Position numbers and translations under genes: made by a program. From the NCBI RefSeq assembly GCF_024362525.1, contig NZ_CP101459.1, positions 62,001-126,000 on the forward strand: a stretch of 64,000 nt of DNA, read 5' to 3'. Below are positions 639 to 7,712 of the stretch, in pieces. Under the pieces are notes generated by a model, which did no database searches, was not told the DNA's origin, and saw only the letters and a list, made by a program, of their open reading frames with translations. How positions within the stretch are numbered: the stretch's first letter is position 1; each line of letters opens with the position of its first letter. The stretch is from Natrononativus amylolyticus. GTDB taxonomy: Archaea; Halobacteriota; Halobacteria; Halobacteriales; Natrialbaceae.

Positions 639-2315
639 ATGCACAATCGTAGACGCTTTCTTAAAGCGACAGCAGTGGCGGGGACTGCTGTTGGACTGTC
701 AGGGTGTCTTGGGGAGGACGACGACGACCACGACCTGCCGGCACCGGAGGACGACGAAGAGTACGAAGAACTCGATACGATCGAGTGGGTCGGCATCTCG
801 CGTGACGCGGCGCCCCTTCGGAACGAAGCGCAGGGGATGATCGCCGACCAGTGGGCGGAACTCGGCATCGACGTGAACGTCGATATCCGGGATCTGAGCG
901 GACTGTTCGATCGCTGGTACGATCGGGATTTCGATGTCCTGACACTCTGGGTCGTCGCGCGACCGGACCGACTCGACCCGTTCTTCATGCTGGTGCACAA
1001 CTTCCACTCCGATTACGCGGACGAAGGGGAGAACGCGATCCAGTTCCGAAGCGACGAGTACGACGAACTTGCGGATCGAATTCGAAGCGAAATGGACGAA
1101 GACGCCCGCCAGGAGGCAGTCATGGAGGCCCAGGAGATTCTGGCCGAGGAACAGCCCGTCATCCCGATTTACCATCAGGATGCGCTCTCCGCAGCGAACG
1201 AATCGTCTTTCGGCGGGTGGACTGAGCAGATCGGTGCGTATCCGTACTGGAGCGTTGCGGTTCTCGACAACCTCGAGCCGGTCGATGGCCAGGATCAGTT
1301 TACGTTGGCGTCGCTCGAGGAGCCGACAACGATTCACCCGATGGCAATCCAGGGGAACGCAGCGGCCGAGGCGACGAAGATGATCTTCTCGCGGCTGGTT
1401 CGGTACACAACCGACGGCGAACCGGAACCAGCCGCCGCGAGTGAAATCGAGGTCGTGGACGATACGACAGTCGAAGTGGAGTTACGCGAGGATATCACGT
1501 TCCACGATGGTGAATCGCTGACGGCCGACGACGTGCAGTTCACGATGGACTACTATCAGGAATACGAGGTCCCGTACATGGCTGGCTACTACGACGTCGT
1601 CGAAAGCGTCGACGTCGTCGACGATGAGACGGTCCATTTCAACCTCGAGGAGCCCGACGCCTCGTTTACGACGGTCTCGCTCTCCCAGCTTAACATCCTC
1701 CCCCAACACATCTGGGAGGACGTCGTCGACGACGAAGGGATCTCTCATCCCAACGAGTACACCGACGACGAGGTGTACGTCGGCAGCGGCCCGTTCGAGT
1801 TCGTGACCTACGATCCCCAGGATCAGATCGTCTACGAAACGTACGACGACTACCCCCTCGCGGAGATCGACTTCGAGACGCTCGTCTGGTCGCTCTACGG
1901 GTCCGAGTCGACCGCCTTCGGGGCCGTCGAGCAGGGAGAAGCCGACTGCATCCAGGAGATCCAGGTCACCCACTTCGAAGAAGCAGAGGCGAATGAGGAC
2001 CTCAAAGCGACCGCGTCAGAATCCCACGGCGTGACGAGCGTCTGGTTACAGAACGAACGTGATCCGTTCACCGACCAGGCGTTCCGTCAGGCGCTCGCCC
2101 ACGTGACCGACAAACAGCGTGTCGTTCAGGTGATCCTAGAAGGGCGCGGGCAGGAAGCGACGTCGCAGATCGCTCCCGCGAACGACGCGTGGCACAACCC
2201 CGACCTGCCGGCGTACGACGGTGGTGTCGAGGAGGCCATCGACGTCCTCTCCGACGCGGGCTATCGATGGGATGATGGAACGCTCCTCGCGCCAGCAGAT
2301 CGATTCACAGAATGA
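639..2315 (+). CDS. SBP family 5 peptide-binding lipoprotein with apparently permuted domain order
   Basis: This is the extracytoplasmic binding protein (558 residues) of the Dpp/Opp-type ABC transporter encoded downstream. It begins with a Tat signal (RRRFLK) and a lipobox ending at Cys23 (LSGC), so it is probably lipid-anchored outside the membrane. The order of SBP_5 landmarks is unusual. Motifs normally found in the last third come first: GIDVNVDIRD near 82, RPDRLDPFFM near 108 and PVIPIYH near 168. Motifs normally found in the first two thirds follow: TFHDGESLTADDV near 287, GSGPFEF near 382 and ALAHVTDKQ near 485. The chain ends where canonical proteins would continue into the first block. 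I read this as a circular permutation. Its stop overlaps the permease start (ATGA), so the operon is translationally coupled. Confidence 0.85.
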   Translation: MHNRRRFLKATAVAGTAVGLSGCLGEDDDDHDLPAPEDDEEYEELDTIEWVGISRDAAPLRNEAQGMIADQWAELGIDVNVDIRDLSGLFDRWYDRDFDVLTLWVVARPDRLDPFFMLVHNFHSDYADEGENAIQFRSDEYDELADRIRSEMDEDARQEAVMEAQEILAEEQPVIPIYHQDALSAANESSFGGWTEQIGAYPYWSVAVLDNLEPVDGQDQFTLASLEEPTTIHPMAIQGNAAAEATKMIFSRLVRYTTDGEPEPAAASEIEVVDDTTVEVELREDITFHDGESLTADDVQFTMDYYQEYEVPYMAGYYDVVESVDVVDDETVHFNLEEPDASFTTVSLSQLNILPQHIWEDVVDDEGISHPNEYTDDEVYVGSGPFEFVTYDPQDQIVYETYDDYPLAEIDFETLVWSLYGSESTAFGAVEQGEADCIQEIQVTHFEEAEANEDLKATASESHGVTSVWLQNERDPFTDQAFRQALAHVTDKQRVVQVILEGRGQEATSQIAPANDAWHNPDLPAYDGGVEEAIDVLSDAGYRWDDGTLLAPADRFTE

Positions 2316-3295
2316 GGCTACAGTATGTCCTCAAGCGGGCGGGGTTCGCTGTGGGGTCGATCTTCGTCGTCGCGAACCTCCTGTTCTTTCTGTTTCGGTT
2401 GACCCCCGGCGACCCGAGTACGGTCGTCGCCGACCCGACGATGCCCGCGGAGGCCAGACAGGAGATCCTCGAACAGCACGGCCTCACTGAACCACTGTAC
2501 GTCCAGTACGTAACGTACATGCAGAACCTCCTGACGGGCGATCTCGGAACCTCGTTCCAGCGCAACGAGCCGGTTCTCTCGATCCTGCTCGATACCACGC
2601 TGAATACGATCGTGCTGATGCTCACCTCGGTGTTGCTCGCGTTTGGGATCGGAATCACGATCGGTGCGTTTCTGTCCTGGCGGCGAAACACCTTGATCGA
2701 CACGATCGGTATCGGGACGATCATCCTGTTCTACGCCGCTCCTGTGTTCTGGACCGGGATGGTCGGGATCATGATCTTCTCGTTTCATCTCGGGTGGGTG
2801 CCATCGGGCGGGATGCGGAGTGCAGGCTACTCATCAGATATGCTACTCGACCGATACCTCTCGATGGACTTCCTGCGACACCTCGCGTTACCGCTTCTCG
2901 TGACGACGCTGTACTGGCTCACCGCGCCGACGTTCATCATGCGAAACAACATGATCGACGTCCTCGGCGAGGACTTCATCAAGATGGGGCGCGCCCAGGG
3001 GCTGTCCGAACGGAGTTTGATCTACAGACACGCGGCCAGAAACTCCCTGTTGCCCGTCGTACACTACGGGGCGATCGCGGTCGGCTTTGCGTTCGGCGGC
3101 TCCGTCGTCATCGAGACGGTGTTTTCCTGGCCGGGCGTCGGTCGGTTGATGTGGCAGGCAGTGCTTCAAGAGGACTATCCGCTTGCACAAGGGGCGTTCC
3201 TGATGCTCGCGACGGTCATCATCACACTGAACTTCCTGGTCGACATGATCAGCGTTATCATCGATCCACGGACTGAAACGGAGACGGTGACATAG
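2312..3295 (+). CDS. dppB: Dipeptide/oligopeptide ABC permease, DppB type
   Basis: An inner permease subunit of 327 residues. The hydrophobic N-terminal helix is followed by the DppB hallmark RLTPGDPST and a six-helix permease core. A cytoplasmic coupling (EAA-type) segment near the C-terminus includes ETVFSWPGVGRLM, the loop that contacts the ATPases. The start overlaps the binding-protein stop by four bases. DppC follows with no gap. With DppC it should form the membrane pore for peptide uptake; substrate class cannot be fixed from sequence. Confidence 0.92.
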   Translation: MRLQYVLKRAGFAVGSIFVVANLLFFLFRLTPGDPSTVVADPTMPAEARQEILEQHGLTEPLYVQYVTYMQNLLTGDLGTSFQRNEPVLSILLDTTLNTIVLMLTSVLLAFGIGITIGAFLSWRRNTLIDTIGIGTIILFYAAPVFWTGMVGIMIFSFHLGWVPSGGMRSAGYSSDMLLDRYLSMDFLRHLALPLLVTTLYWLTAPTFIMRNNMIDVLGEDFIKMGRAQGLSERSLIYRHAARNSLLPVVHYGAIAVGFAFGGSVVIETVFSWPGVGRLMWQAVLQEDYPLAQGAFLMLATVIITLNFLVDMISVIIDPRTETETVT

Positions 3296-4231
3296 ATGGC
3301 TGGACGCTCAGATACCACGACGTTTCTCGATTCGCATCTCTCGGAGAATCGGCGAATCGTGCTCGAGAAATTCTGGGAGCAACTCATCGGCGTCGCGGGG
3401 GACATCCGACGAAACCGAACGGCGTTCGCCGCGCTCATCGTTCTCACGACGTTCGTGGTCGTCGCCGTCTTTGCCCCGTACATCGCGCCGTACGAACCGA
3501 TGGCCTATCACGACAGCCCCGATGGGACCGCAATGGGGATGGAACCGCCGAGCAGTACCCACATCTTCGGAACGACGAGCCTCGGCCAGGACGTCTTCAG
3601 CCAGTGGGTGTTCGCCGCTCGCGCCTCCCTGCTTGTCGGGTTCCTCTCTGGCCTGTCAGTGACGGTCATCGGCGTCACCGTCGGGCTTGTCGCCGGCTAC
3701 TACAAGGGGACAGTCGACCTCGTCCTCATGCGCGTCGTCGACGTCCTCTACGGGATTCCGGCAACACCGCTCATCCTCATCGTCGCGATGTTCTTCGGCA
3801 GTTCACTGTGGACGGTGATTATCGCGATGGTCCTGATTCTCTGGCGAACGATGGCACGGGTGATTCGGTCACAGACGCTGTCGCTCGCTGAACGCCCGTT
3901 CGTGAAAGCCGCGCGGGCGAGCGGTGCGAGTGATCTCAGGATCATCTTCATCCACATCGCCCCGAACCTACTCCCGCTCATCTTCATCCAGGGTACCCTC
4001 GCCGTCGGGACGGCGATCCTGCTCGAGGCAGGGGTGTCGTTCCTGGGAATCGGTGCGGAACTCAGTTGGGGATCGATGCTGCAGATGACGTTCGCGACGG
4101 GTGCGATCCGCTATGCGCCGTGGTGGGTCTTCCCACCGGGAATCGCACTCACGTTGCTCATCATGTCGCTGTTCTTCCTCTCGCGAGCGATCGAAGATAT
4201 CGCCCAGCCGGAGATGAGGTCCGTCAAATGA
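3296..4231 (+). CDS. dppC: Dipeptide/oligopeptide ABC permease, DppC type
   Basis: The second permease subunit, 311 residues. A cytoplasmic N-terminal stretch of about 40 residues precedes the first helix, as in DppC/OppC. The segment HIFGTTSLGQDVFS is the usual DppC motif after helix 1. The EAA-type coupling loop reads EAGVSFLGIGAELSWG. It starts one base after the dppB stop and is followed after 37 bases by the two ATPase genes. It is expected to pair with the 2312-3295 product. Confidence 0.92.
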   Translation: MAGRSDTTTFLDSHLSENRRIVLEKFWEQLIGVAGDIRRNRTAFAALIVLTTFVVVAVFAPYIAPYEPMAYHDSPDGTAMGMEPPSSTHIFGTTSLGQDVFSQWVFAARASLLVGFLSGLSVTVIGVTVGLVAGYYKGTVDLVLMRVVDVLYGIPATPLILIVAMFFGSSLWTVIIAMVLILWRTMARVIRSQTLSLAERPFVKAARASGASDLRIIFIHIAPNLLPLIFIQGTLAVGTAILLEAGVSFLGIGAELSWGSMLQMTFATGAIRYAPWWVFPPGIALTLLIMSLFFLSRAIEDIAQPEMRSVK

Positions 4232-4268
4232 CTCGCCACCCCAGCCCAGAATCCAGAACGAGTACACG

Positions 4269-5282
4269 ATGACATTACTAGACGTAAACGAGCTGTCGAT
4301 CGAATATCGAACCGACGAGCAGACGATCCACGCCGTTAACGATGTGAGTTTCACCCTTCAGGAGGGGGAGATCCTGTGTATCGTCGGCGAGAGTGGCTGC
4401 GGGAAGACGACACTCGCCGAAGCGCTCGTTGGATTGCTCCCCTCCAACGGCGTCGTCTCCGGTGGCAACATCATGCTAGACGAGACAGATCTCGCCCAAC
4501 TGTCCGAATCCGAGTACAAGGACTTCCGCGCAACGGAAATCTCGTATGTGATCCAAAGCGCGATGAATGCACTTGATCCAGTATATCCGATCAAAAAACA
4601 GTTTATAGAAGTCATCAGAACCCATACAGATTTGTCGAAGGGGGAGGCGCTCGAGCGCAGCGAGCAAATGCTCGAGAACGTCGGCATCGATGCGAACCGG
4701 ATCAACGACTACCCCCACGAGCTCTCCGGTGGCCAGCGACAGCGGGTGGTGATCGCGTTCTCGTTGCTCTTAGAGCCCTCGATCGTGGTGGCAGACGAGC
4801 CGACGACGGGTCTCGATGTCGTCGTCCAGGACGACGTACTGGAGATGATCCTCGACCTCCAGCGGTCGCTGAACAACTCCATGATCATCATCACCCACGA
4901 TATGAGCGTGGTCGCGGAGATCGCAGATCGTGTCATCGTGATGTATGGGGGTGAGATCGCCGAAATCGGCCCGGTTAGCGAGATCTTCAACCACAGTGCA
5001 CATCCGTATACGATGGGGTTGAACAACGCGTTTCCGACGCTCGAGGTCGATGTGGATCAACTCATCAGCATTCCGGGGTCGCCACCCGAGCTTCTATCAG
5101 AACCAAGTGAGTGTCAGTTTATGGAGCGGTGTCCGTTCTCAACAGACGAGTGTTATACCCGGCCGCCGCTCGATACCGTCGACGGGACGGCGGACCATCG
5201 AGCGAAGTGTCACTATGTGGAGGATCGACGTGAGTTCAGGGACCGGGCTGCACACGCTGAAACCTGGGAGCCAGAGCAATGA
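4269..5282 (+). CDS. dppD: Peptide ABC transporter ATPase, DppD type
   Basis: An ABC ATPase of 337 residues that powers the transporter encoded just upstream. Walker A is GESGCGKTTL (near 38-47), the signature is LSGGQRQRV, Walker B is VVADEPTTGLD, and the switch histidine is in IITHD. The C-terminal tail carries the oligopeptide-ATPase cysteine motif CQFMERCPFSTDEC, typical of DppD/OppD. The stop overlaps the start of the next ATPase gene by four bases. The two ATPases should form a heterodimer. Confidence 0.93.
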   Translation: MTLLDVNELSIEYRTDEQTIHAVNDVSFTLQEGEILCIVGESGCGKTTLAEALVGLLPSNGVVSGGNIMLDETDLAQLSESEYKDFRATEISYVIQSAMNALDPVYPIKKQFIEVIRTHTDLSKGEALERSEQMLENVGIDANRINDYPHELSGGQRQRVVIAFSLLLEPSIVVADEPTTGLDVVVQDDVLEMILDLQRSLNNSMIIITHDMSVVAEIADRVIVMYGGEIAEIGPVSEIFNHSAHPYTMGLNNAFPTLEVDVDQLISIPGSPPELLSEPSECQFMERCPFSTDECYTRPPLDTVDGTADHRAKCHYVEDRREFRDRAAHAETWEPEQ

Positions 5283-6397
5283 CCGCGCCAACGCTTTTCG
5301 AGATCCGAAACCTTCGGAAGCTGTACCAGACCCGCAGCCAGGGGATCCTCTCCCAGCTGTTCGGCGAGTCAGCGCACCTCAAAGCCGTCGACGACGTCAG
5401 CTTTGATATCAACGAAGGCGAGATACTCGGGCTCGCCGGCCAAAGTGGGTGTGGGAAATCGACGCTTGGAGAACTGCTGGTCGGACTCCAGCCACCCACG
5501 GACGGCGAGATTCGCTTCCGCGGAGAGAACATCCTCGAGTACGACTCCGACCAGATGAAGGCGTTCCGGGAGAAGTGCCAGGTCATCTTCCAGGATCCGT
5601 ACGAAGCGCTGAACCCACGGTTTCCCGTCACGCGTCTGGTATCAGAGCCACTGACGATTCACGGCATCCGGGATCGAGAGACGCGCCAAGCCCGCATCAT
5701 GGAAGCGTTGCAGGACGCCGGCCTTCGTGATCCGGGAAAGTACCTCGACAAACTCCCGTCTGAACTCTCCGGCGGACAGCGCCAGCGCGTCTGCATTGCT
5801 CGCGCGCTGGTCCTGGATCCGGATTTCATCGTCGCAGACGAACCCGTGTCGATGTTAGACGTCAGCGTCCAGACCGCGATCCTGAATCTCTTCCACGAAC
5901 TCCAGGAAAAACGAGATCTCGCGATGTTGTACGTCTCGCACGATCTCTCGACGATCAATTACCTCGCTGATCGAACGATGATCATGTACCTGGGGGACGC
6001 CGTCGAAATCGGCCCGACGAAAGACGTCATCCACGAGCCGTCGCACCCGTACACGGAGTCCCTCCTCGACGCAGTTCCACAGCCCGATCCGGACCGTCGA
6101 CGAGCCGGGAGCCAGATCCAAGGCGAGATCCCTGACCCGATCAACCTACCGAGCGGCTGTCGGTTCCACCCGCAATGTCCGTACAAATCCGAGACGTGTG
6201 TTACTGTAGAGCCGCCCCTCGAACACAAACCCCTGCCACAGGAGACGGAGTCCGGAAACGGCCCGGAATCGCACACGACCAAACGGGTCGCCTGCCACCA
6301 TCCGGTCGGAGAGGAACTCGGAATCGACGAGGCACCCAGCTCCGGTGAGCACCATGAGGTCAACGGGGAGGATTCGGCGACCGGAATCGAGCGGTGA
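5279..6397 (+). CDS. dppF: Peptide ABC transporter ATPase, DppF type
   Basis: The partner ATPase, 372 residues and last gene of the operon. Walker A is GQSGCGKSTL, the signature LSGGQRQRV, Walker B IVADEPVSMLD and the switch region YVSHDLST. The oligopeptide-ATPase C-terminal motif CRFHPQCPYKSETC is present. A hydrophilic tail of about 60 residues follows, rich in Glu, Gly and Pro and unlikely to be structured. No operon gene follows; the next coding-like DNA is a broken protease. Confidence 0.92.
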   Translation: MTAPTLFEIRNLRKLYQTRSQGILSQLFGESAHLKAVDDVSFDINEGEILGLAGQSGCGKSTLGELLVGLQPPTDGEIRFRGENILEYDSDQMKAFREKCQVIFQDPYEALNPRFPVTRLVSEPLTIHGIRDRETRQARIMEALQDAGLRDPGKYLDKLPSELSGGQRQRVCIARALVLDPDFIVADEPVSMLDVSVQTAILNLFHELQEKRDLAMLYVSHDLSTINYLADRTMIMYLGDAVEIGPTKDVIHEPSHPYTESLLDAVPQPDPDRRRAGSQIQGEIPDPINLPSGCRFHPQCPYKSETCVTVEPPLEHKPLPQETESGNGPESHTTKRVACHHPVGEELGIDEAPSSGEHHEVNGEDSATGIER

Positions 6398-6599
6398 GAA
6401 CCGCTGTTGGTGAACACAGCGACCCGTTCGCGACCCAAGGACGACGTCCGTCCCGGCGAACGGAGCTGTGATGACGGCGAGAGCGTACCCACGCCGAACG
6501 TGTACAGGAGACCAGAGAGACGGCTGTAGACAGTGCGACAGGTGTCAGGGAGGCACCACCACACGAGAGCGGGCCGAGAGCTCGAAGAACACGCTGCTC

Positions 6600-7712
6600 A
6601 CGGCACCCGACGGACCTACCTCATCCCCCACGGCGTCGACCGCGACGCCCTCGACCACACGTTCTTCAACGTCGACTACCTCCTCGAGTACGGCTACACG
6701 GGCGCCGAGCACGACGCTATCCCGGTCGTCGCCAGATTCCCCGCGGACCGGGCGGTGTCGGCCGCCGACGCGGGCGCCTTCGGCGGCACCAACGCCCGGG
6801 CGCTCCCGACGGCGAACGGTCGTCGCCGTGGGCATCCCCGAGCGAGACCTGCGCGCAGCGGCCGACGTCACGACCCTCACCGCGGACCTCGAGTTCCTTA
6901 ATCTGGATCGGGCCTACGAGGCGATCCTCGACGAGTCGGCACCACGGATCGGGGCCGGCGAGGCGCGCGCGGCGTTCGCCGTCGACGGCGAGGGCGTTCG
7001 GATCGCGGTCATCGACACCGGGATCGATCCCGACGGCCCGAACCAGCCGCCGCACGTGGCCAACGTCCACGTGCCCGGCCTCTCGGCGTTCAACCGGATC
7101 CCGCCGGGTGAGACGACCCTCGAGGTCGCGTTCGACCCCACCCATGACGGCTCCGGATCCGCGTCGATCGTCGGCGTCGAGGCCTACTACGCCCACGGCG
7201 TGGCCACTGCCCCGTTCGAGGACGCCGACGGCTGGTACGAGGCGGACGTCGTCGATCGGGGTGCGAACCGGTACGCGGTCGGCCTCGAGGCGGCGGGTAA
7301 GGCCGTCGACCTCGCGCTCGCGGTGACCACCGACGCGGGCGCCACCGTGCGTGTGACGACGCTCAGGGCCGTCCGCGTCGGCCACCCGATCGATATCCGC
7401 CCGGACGAACTCGACATCCTATCGAACCAGCGCGTTCCCGTCGTCCTCAAGCTGACCGACGACTTCGACCCCCACGCCATCGACGAATCGACGCTCCGCT
7501 TCGGCGCACCAGAGGCGGTCGCCGCGGGTGGAGGTGCCCCGGACGTAGGCGTTCAACGCCGGGGCGACGGGAGTGTCCAGGCCCAGTTCGTCGCGAGCGA
7601 GATGGGTTGTGGCTGCGACGACGACCCGACGGTGGGTCACCTCGTCGGCGAACTCGCCGACGGCACGCCCGTGTTCGGCTCGGATCTGATCGAACGCATC
7701 GTCTGTGAGTGA
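6600..7712 (+). pseudogene. Remnant of a secreted subtilisin-like (S8) protease
   Basis: Pieces of one protease lie in two frames. From about 6611 to 6810 one frame reads like an S8 inhibitor propeptide (FFNVDYLLEYGYTGAEHD). Around 6810 it shifts, and another frame continues with the propeptide end and the catalytic aspartate motif VRIAVIDTGID (near 7001). The His and Ser motifs that should follow are absent, so most of the catalytic domain is deleted. The 3' part (to 7712) resembles a C-terminal domain found after such enzymes: HPIDIRPDELDILSNQRVPV, a TDDFD segment and a G-x-DLIERIV end. No intact start or signal peptide is seen. The product would be inactive. Confidence 0.65.

Follow-up and report, generated by a model that had tools for sequence, protein, structure and literature searches.

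Solute-binding proteins of the SBP_bac_5 family (cluster C) such as DppA, OppA, AppA, NikA and GsiB serve ABC importers, and both ends of their chains lie in the N-lobe. We found one described precedent for natural circular permutation among solute-binding proteins, and it belongs to a different cluster. This is TpMglB-2 (Tp0684), a lipid-anchored ABC solute-binding protein from Treponema pallidum that has been designated 'Type Ic / Cluster Bc'. It is cut in the N-lobe, has a fourth lobe crossing added, and is only 13% identical to canonical proteins in its permuted part (PMC4990184). Glucose binding is retained and is accompanied by a conformational change (PMC4990184). The origin of TpMglB-2 stayed open because its permuted part is so divergent. 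For SBP_5, DppA or OppA, we found no report of permutation in the open-access literature, where TpMglB-2, of cluster B, is the nearest precedent.

The window analyzed here is a stretch of 64,000 nucleotides from Natrononativus amylolyticus. It encodes a protein that shares with DppA, OppA, AppA, NikA and GsiB the homology of both of its parts, the predicted fold, a lipobox signal and an adjoining DppBCDF gene set. It differs from them in that the C-terminal part of the chain comes first and the N-terminal part second, and its termini would be found in the C-lobe rather than the N-lobe. To judge from the open literature, such a topology has not been described before in this very well-known family. 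Like TpMglB-2, the window protein is a naturally permuted member of the lipid-anchored solute-binding proteins of ABC importers. However, TpMglB-2 is a cluster B sugar binder cut in the N-lobe, whereas the window protein belongs to PF00496 (cluster C) and is cut in the C-lobe, where lobe crossings should be unchanged. Membership in the Cluster Bc type was thus ruled out. In contrast to the divergent part of TpMglB-2, we find several independent events here, one with canonical partners that are 83-87% identical.

Gene structure and chain order

The gene and its parts are as follows (all on the + strand).

621 to 2315: whole gene, circularly permuted SBP_bac_5 lipoprotein (564 aa; 558 aa if the start is at 639)
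639 to 707: Tat-type signal (RRRF) and lipobox LSGC, with the lipidated Cys codon at 705-707
753 to 1256: block 1 (aa 45-212), corresponding to the C-terminal part of canonical SBP_5 proteins (83.6 bits on HMM 392-518; Foldseek of the block alone) and spanning the second half of the C-lobe before leading back to the N-lobe
1257 to 1292: linker (aa 213-224) from the former C-terminus to the former N-terminus (sequence, HMM maps)
1293 to 2312: block 2 (aa 225-564), corresponding to the N-terminal part of canonical SBP_5 proteins (profile, PDB-sequence and rotation alignments); N-lobe and first half of the C-lobe, with the new C-terminus just after AGYRWDDG

The open reading frame has ATG starts at 621 and 639, and from 639 it reads MHNRRRFLKA, a Tat signal. 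The signal and lipobox (RRRFLKA...LSGC, with LSGC at aa 26-29) are of the kind expected for export of SBP_bac_5 proteins. TIGR01409 scores above its cut-off and Pfam TAT_signal just under. An acidic spacer separates the lipobox from block 1. A preliminary description of this DNA had claimed that the motif order of SBP family 5 is rotated, and the motifs are indeed where it placed them. GIDVNV and RPDRLDP are in block 1 and PVIPIYH lies before aa 190, followed by FHDGES (294-299), GSGPFEF (388-394) and, near the chain end, ALAHVTDKQ. The rotation scan and the AppA alignment described below agree with that claim.

Pfam SBP_bac_5 (PF00496) matches the window protein with 206.4 bits (cut-off 32.4) in two stretches, the better of which places aa 267-555, within block 2, on profile positions 1-285. 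A single in-order alignment over the full profile is absent for the native chain, which aligns only as two swapped stretches. For this reason we term the protein a permuted variant homologous to SBP_bac_5 rather than a canonical member. In a phmmer search against the PDB, residues 18-350 of Bacillus subtilis AppA (1xoc) correspond to query 220-554 and residues 372-494 to query 66-191. The matches are in swapped order, and thus the chain order of the window protein is rotated.

We also rotated the window protein at every fifth residue and scored each form with an HMM built from 31 usual-order proteins only. The best single domain of the native chain scores 256 bits. Opening the chain at about ORF aa 215-220 raises this to 337.5 bits, and the rotated chain gives one end-to-end alignment (HMM 48-520). 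Other tested proteins that share the window breakpoint behave in the same way. Unpermuted controls (L003, L005, E. coli DppA (L174) and L158) reach their maximum at zero rotation or next to it. When a profile of permuted proteins was compared with PDB sequences, none of the top 60 matches had its best stretch across the junction.

The confinement of the best Pfam stretch to block 2 is what would be seen if a binding protein truncated at its C-terminus had been fused to a domain (block 1) that is unrelated or resembles SBP_5 only in a general way. We give this almost no credence, since block 1 by itself reaches 83.6 bits (E 1.8e-25) on exactly the part of the canonical-only HMM that is otherwise missing (392-518), whereas none of 300 shuffles exceeds 5.4 bits. 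Further, rotation recovers one continuous alignment, and the corresponding block of Archaeoglobus proteins (see below) is 83-87% identical to the canonical C-terminal part of congeners. These three findings rule out an unrelated first domain, and block 1 also matches DppA and OppA folds. An in-order SBP_5 alignment over more than 80% of the chain was sought with Pfam, phmmer, the rotation scan and structure aligners, and none was obtained.

Nothing in the window points to an error of assembly, reading frame or gene calling, although one bacterial homologue (L053) looks frameshifted in its record. The same order occurs in intact single ORFs at about 140 distinct homologous loci, from several phyla and independent assemblies including complete genomes, and is thus not an assembly error. 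The junction is also consistent in three genomes of one genus (Archaeoglobus). An artefact is therefore extremely improbable, and we regard the window protein as a confirmed, genuine circular permutation of an SBP_5 (cluster C) protein.

Predicted fold, position of the cut and transporter genes

The natural window chain was modeled with AlphaFold2, using an alignment of 31 bacterial permuted relatives (pLDDT 84.5, pTM 0.85). Foldseek and VIA-align 2 were used as aligners that keep chain order. Model residues 178-524 match AppA (1xoc) 18-361 (Z 25.6, 336 residues, rmsd 5.5) and the corresponding part of DppA, OppA and others. The remaining canonical chain is unmatched, as expected if its last third now comes first. 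Block 1 predicted alone gives a poorer model (pLDDT 66), whose best structure matches are Yersinia pestis DppA, E. coli DppA and OppA (Foldseek E 8e-5 to 2e-4 against DppA). The cluster C fold is thus predicted for the window protein. From the pTM and the sequence, block 1 is predicted to occupy its native position within that fold.

Mapped via the canonical HMM, the cut corresponds to OppA mature residues ~355-357 and DppA mature residues ~342-344. We take domain III of OppA to be residues 271-486, so that the cut falls in the middle of this domain. Accordingly placed by sequence, it is inside the C-lobe and not at the hinge, and the hinge-side loop that the preliminary description had expected to be opened was not the site. 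Both new termini would then be in the C-lobe, and the lobe crossings should stay two. The old termini, which the same description expected to be joined, both belong to the N-lobe, and the linker of about 12 residues between the blocks connects them.

We propose that the protein is the lipid-anchored solute-binding protein of an ABC importer of the peptide/opine/nickel family. Its former N- and C-termini would be joined by the linker within the N-lobe, and the chain would be opened in a C-lobe loop between the end of the 'AGY.dDG' helix and the next beta-strand. The permuted chain would fold to the normal two-lobed cluster C form, and this normal Venus flytrap would capture ligand and deliver it to the adjacent DppBCDF. 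The two termini would have moved out of the N-lobe and taken the lipid anchor along, so that the anchor would hang from the C-lobe. Taken as a whole, we consider this proposal (a permuted lipid-anchored cluster C protein of normal fold serving the adjacent DppBCDF) very probably correct.

The neighboring genes are as follows (all on the + strand).

23 to 496: RidA (Rid family) gene directly upstream (PF01042, TIGR00004)
2312 to 3295: DppB-type permease (PF00528, PF19300)
3296 to 4231: DppC-type permease (PF00528, PF12911)
4269 to 5282: DppD/OppD-type ATPase (PF00005, PF08352)
5279 to 6397: DppF-type ATPase (PF00005, PF08352)

The permuted gene is directly upstream of DppBCDF (2312-6397), the genetic link expected for an SBP_bac_5 protein. 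The ordinary DppBCDF set named in the preliminary description is therefore present as a gene set. The RidA gene is probably a functional neighbor of the permuted gene, and one is also found near the homologous locus L051. The nearest relative (36.5%), on a Halobaculum plasmid, has the same set, with genes for RidA, M81 peptidase, creatininase and aminotransferase on its flanks. In the permuted loci of Ketogulonicigenium and Roseomonas the set is flanked by hydantoinase/oxoprolinase, M20 and M28 genes. We infer that the cargo is small peptides or amide or cyclic amino-acid derivatives.

In DppA, the ends of the dipeptide are clamped by Arg383 and Asp436 (E. coli precursor numbering; PMC12136057). 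In an alignment of permuted proteins that excludes the window row, the Asp436 column is acidic in most rows having a residue there (E 21, D 5), and the alignment at the Arg383 column is ambiguous. In the window protein itself, ARPDRLDP and ISRDAAP are seen by eye. NCBIfam equivalogs score far below their cut-offs (e.g., NF043070 DppA, 92 bits versus 1005).

Downstream of dppF, an ORF at 6468-7712 contains a subtilase-like piece (GVRIAVIDTGIDPDG), the upstream part of which seems to run on in a different frame (6533-6901). Inspection by eye suggests a serine protease gene in decay. A Pfam search with this ORF at E 1e-5 yielded nothing.

Distribution and origins of the permuted order

The N. amylolyticus genome has four permuted SBP_5 genes (C2:62621, C1:2694811, C1:1384577 and C1:355841) beside nine of usual order. 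The preliminary description had asked how widely the permuted order occurs in haloarchaea, and it is present in most of those sampled, with permuted loci numbering in the dozens. A permuted gene, recognized by a match through the junction or by an order test, is carried by 37 of the 52 genomes of the same taxonomic order that have a match.

The permuted order is not a haloarchaeal oddity, as bacteria and Archaeoglobaceae carry it too. Beyond the archaea, we identified it in Alphaproteobacteria and in genomes or bins of Chloroflexota and Deinococcota. Some of the genes are on plasmids (Nitratireductor, Maritalea, Ketogulonicigenium, Roseomonas, Microvirga). When five bacterial permuted proteins were searched against the genome collection, all of the best 80 loci were permuted. 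Their records include Trueperaceae, Thermomicrobiales, Caldilineaceae, Anaerolineales, Armatimonadetes and Bacillota, and most of the non-proteobacterial ones are metagenome bins. On plasmid pNgVX of Neorhizobium galegae, the permuted gene (L053, 6905-8558) is annotated as two CDS (hypothetical protein and substrate-binding protein) and is apparently a frameshifted or decayed copy.

One permuted protein with the same breakpoint (L088, 1233-2972, in genome G221) lacks a lipobox and has a C-terminal membrane anchor, which would place the tether on the same lobe, the C-lobe, from the other end of the chain. This anchor, and the fact that haloarchaeal and Archaeoglobus fulgidus members are lipoproteins, would fit an adaptation of tethering in which the lipid anchor moved from the N-lobe to the C-lobe, an idea raised for TpMglB-2 (PMC4990184). 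However, the signals of many bacterial members are of the ordinary cleavable kind and lack a lipobox. These proteins should be free in the periplasm, so that tethering cannot be the general explanation. Canonical lipoprotein homologues also occur in the same genomes. We consider tethering an unlikely reason for the permutation.

Trees were calculated on rotated alignments by 'quick' IQ-TREE searches with very divergent sequences of biased composition, and the final tree includes the window protein. The window clade of haloarchaea and bacteria forms one group (support 98-99). Genomes of the GTDB family coded f21, inferred to be Archaeoglobaceae from the A. fulgidus member, encode further permuted proteins that are placed inside canonical groups. 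The shared breakpoint could be taken to indicate a single event, with transfer to Archaeoglobaceae or reversion of canonical neighbors, and one event plus reversions is formally possible. This is very improbable, as an AU test rejects a single clade of all proteins with the window breakpoint (p 0.003; p 3.7e-34 with more rows), and the permuted L089, L193 and L195 are inside a canonical clade at a path length of ~0.24 from canonical orthologues. For the Archaeoglobus group, a single origin is thus rejected. L088 is placed less firmly and may represent one further permutation event.

Rotation at the window breakpoint arose independently more than once. We propose that it is ancestral to the large clade of haloarchaea and several bacterial phyla, with at least one more origin in Archaeoglobaceae. 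With these repeated origins, the permutable site is one at which the fold has been opened time and again.

The clearest case is in Archaeoglobus (genus code g97), in which three genomes encode a permuted protein that is 83-87% identical, in two swapped blocks, to the canonical orthologues of congeners. One of these genomes (G153) was identified as A. fulgidus DSM 4304, and thus a permuted DppA is present in that strain. The permuted loci (L239, 7827-9386, in G153; L237 in G143; L238 in G198) were compared with canonical L233-L236. In the G153 protein, residues 193-520 correspond to canonical 25-352 (84%) and residues 30-192 to canonical 353/354-515/516 (83-87%), with virtually nothing lost. 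Judging from these sequences the permutation is recent, as both versions still exist in one genus. The permuted gene adjoins DppBCDF in divergent orientation. The canonical proteins (L197, L200, L233-L236), although this similar block by block, have the usual order and are not encoded beside DppBCDF. These congeners have a ~90%-identical DppBCDF without an adjoining binding-protein gene. Their canonical dppA is at another location, which in G123 is ~85 kb from the set.

We assume that the route to permutation was tandem duplication, in-frame fusion and loss of the outer pieces. A tblastn search for duplication remnants beside the permuted Archaeoglobus gene found none. Recombination of two different SBP_5 genes, one donating the C-terminal part and the other the N-terminal part, could give the same block order. 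Haloarchaeal genomes have many SBP_5 paralogues, and donors of the ancient main clade are unidentifiable at ~30% identity. However, both Archaeoglobus blocks match the same canonical orthologue at about equal identity, with seams nearly free of loss or duplication. Recombination is improbable on these grounds, and we favor rotation of a single gene.

A second breakpoint was found in ORFs of ~706 aa from the family coded as Archaeoglobaceae (L221-L225, in G315, G080, G188, G087 and G288). These have an N-terminal lipobox, and the order in L222 is HMM 455-525, 46-159, 202-446.

A PAP2_3-linked branch and meaning for the family

A second haloarchaeal subclade of permuted SBP_5 lipoproteins has longer inserts. 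It includes two of the N. amylolyticus proteins (L004 and L006, at C1:1384577 and 355841) as well as L035-L048, L083, L085, L086, L090-L092, L250 and L251. At nearly every locus examined the gene is directly beside a PAP2_3 (PF14378) gene, often in tandem (SBP-PAP2-SBP-PAP2) and near genes for GT4 glycosyltransferases or MscS, and Dpp permease genes are absent from the neighborhood. Among the loci examined, L087 is the exception to this arrangement. The PAP2_3 neighbor and the lack of transporter genes suggest loss of the transport role. We tentatively suggest, at slightly less than even chances, that SBP_5 was permuted recurrently at two neighboring C-lobe sites (at least three events) and that this haloarchaeal branch left transport to become a substrate-presenting or sensing lipoprotein of a PAP2_3 membrane enzyme.

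The permuted order thus defines a widespread branch, in archaea and bacteria, of a large and heavily studied family (e.g., DppA, OppA, NikA), whose members are annotated simply as 'ABC transporter substrate-binding protein'. On the practical side, domain models split these proteins, and assignment of lobes by position in the chain is wrong for them. Canonical and permuted orthologues of ~85% identity exist within one genus, including in the long-sequenced A. fulgidus. This natural pair could be used to test the effect of chain order on folding, lobe closure and docking on the translocator.
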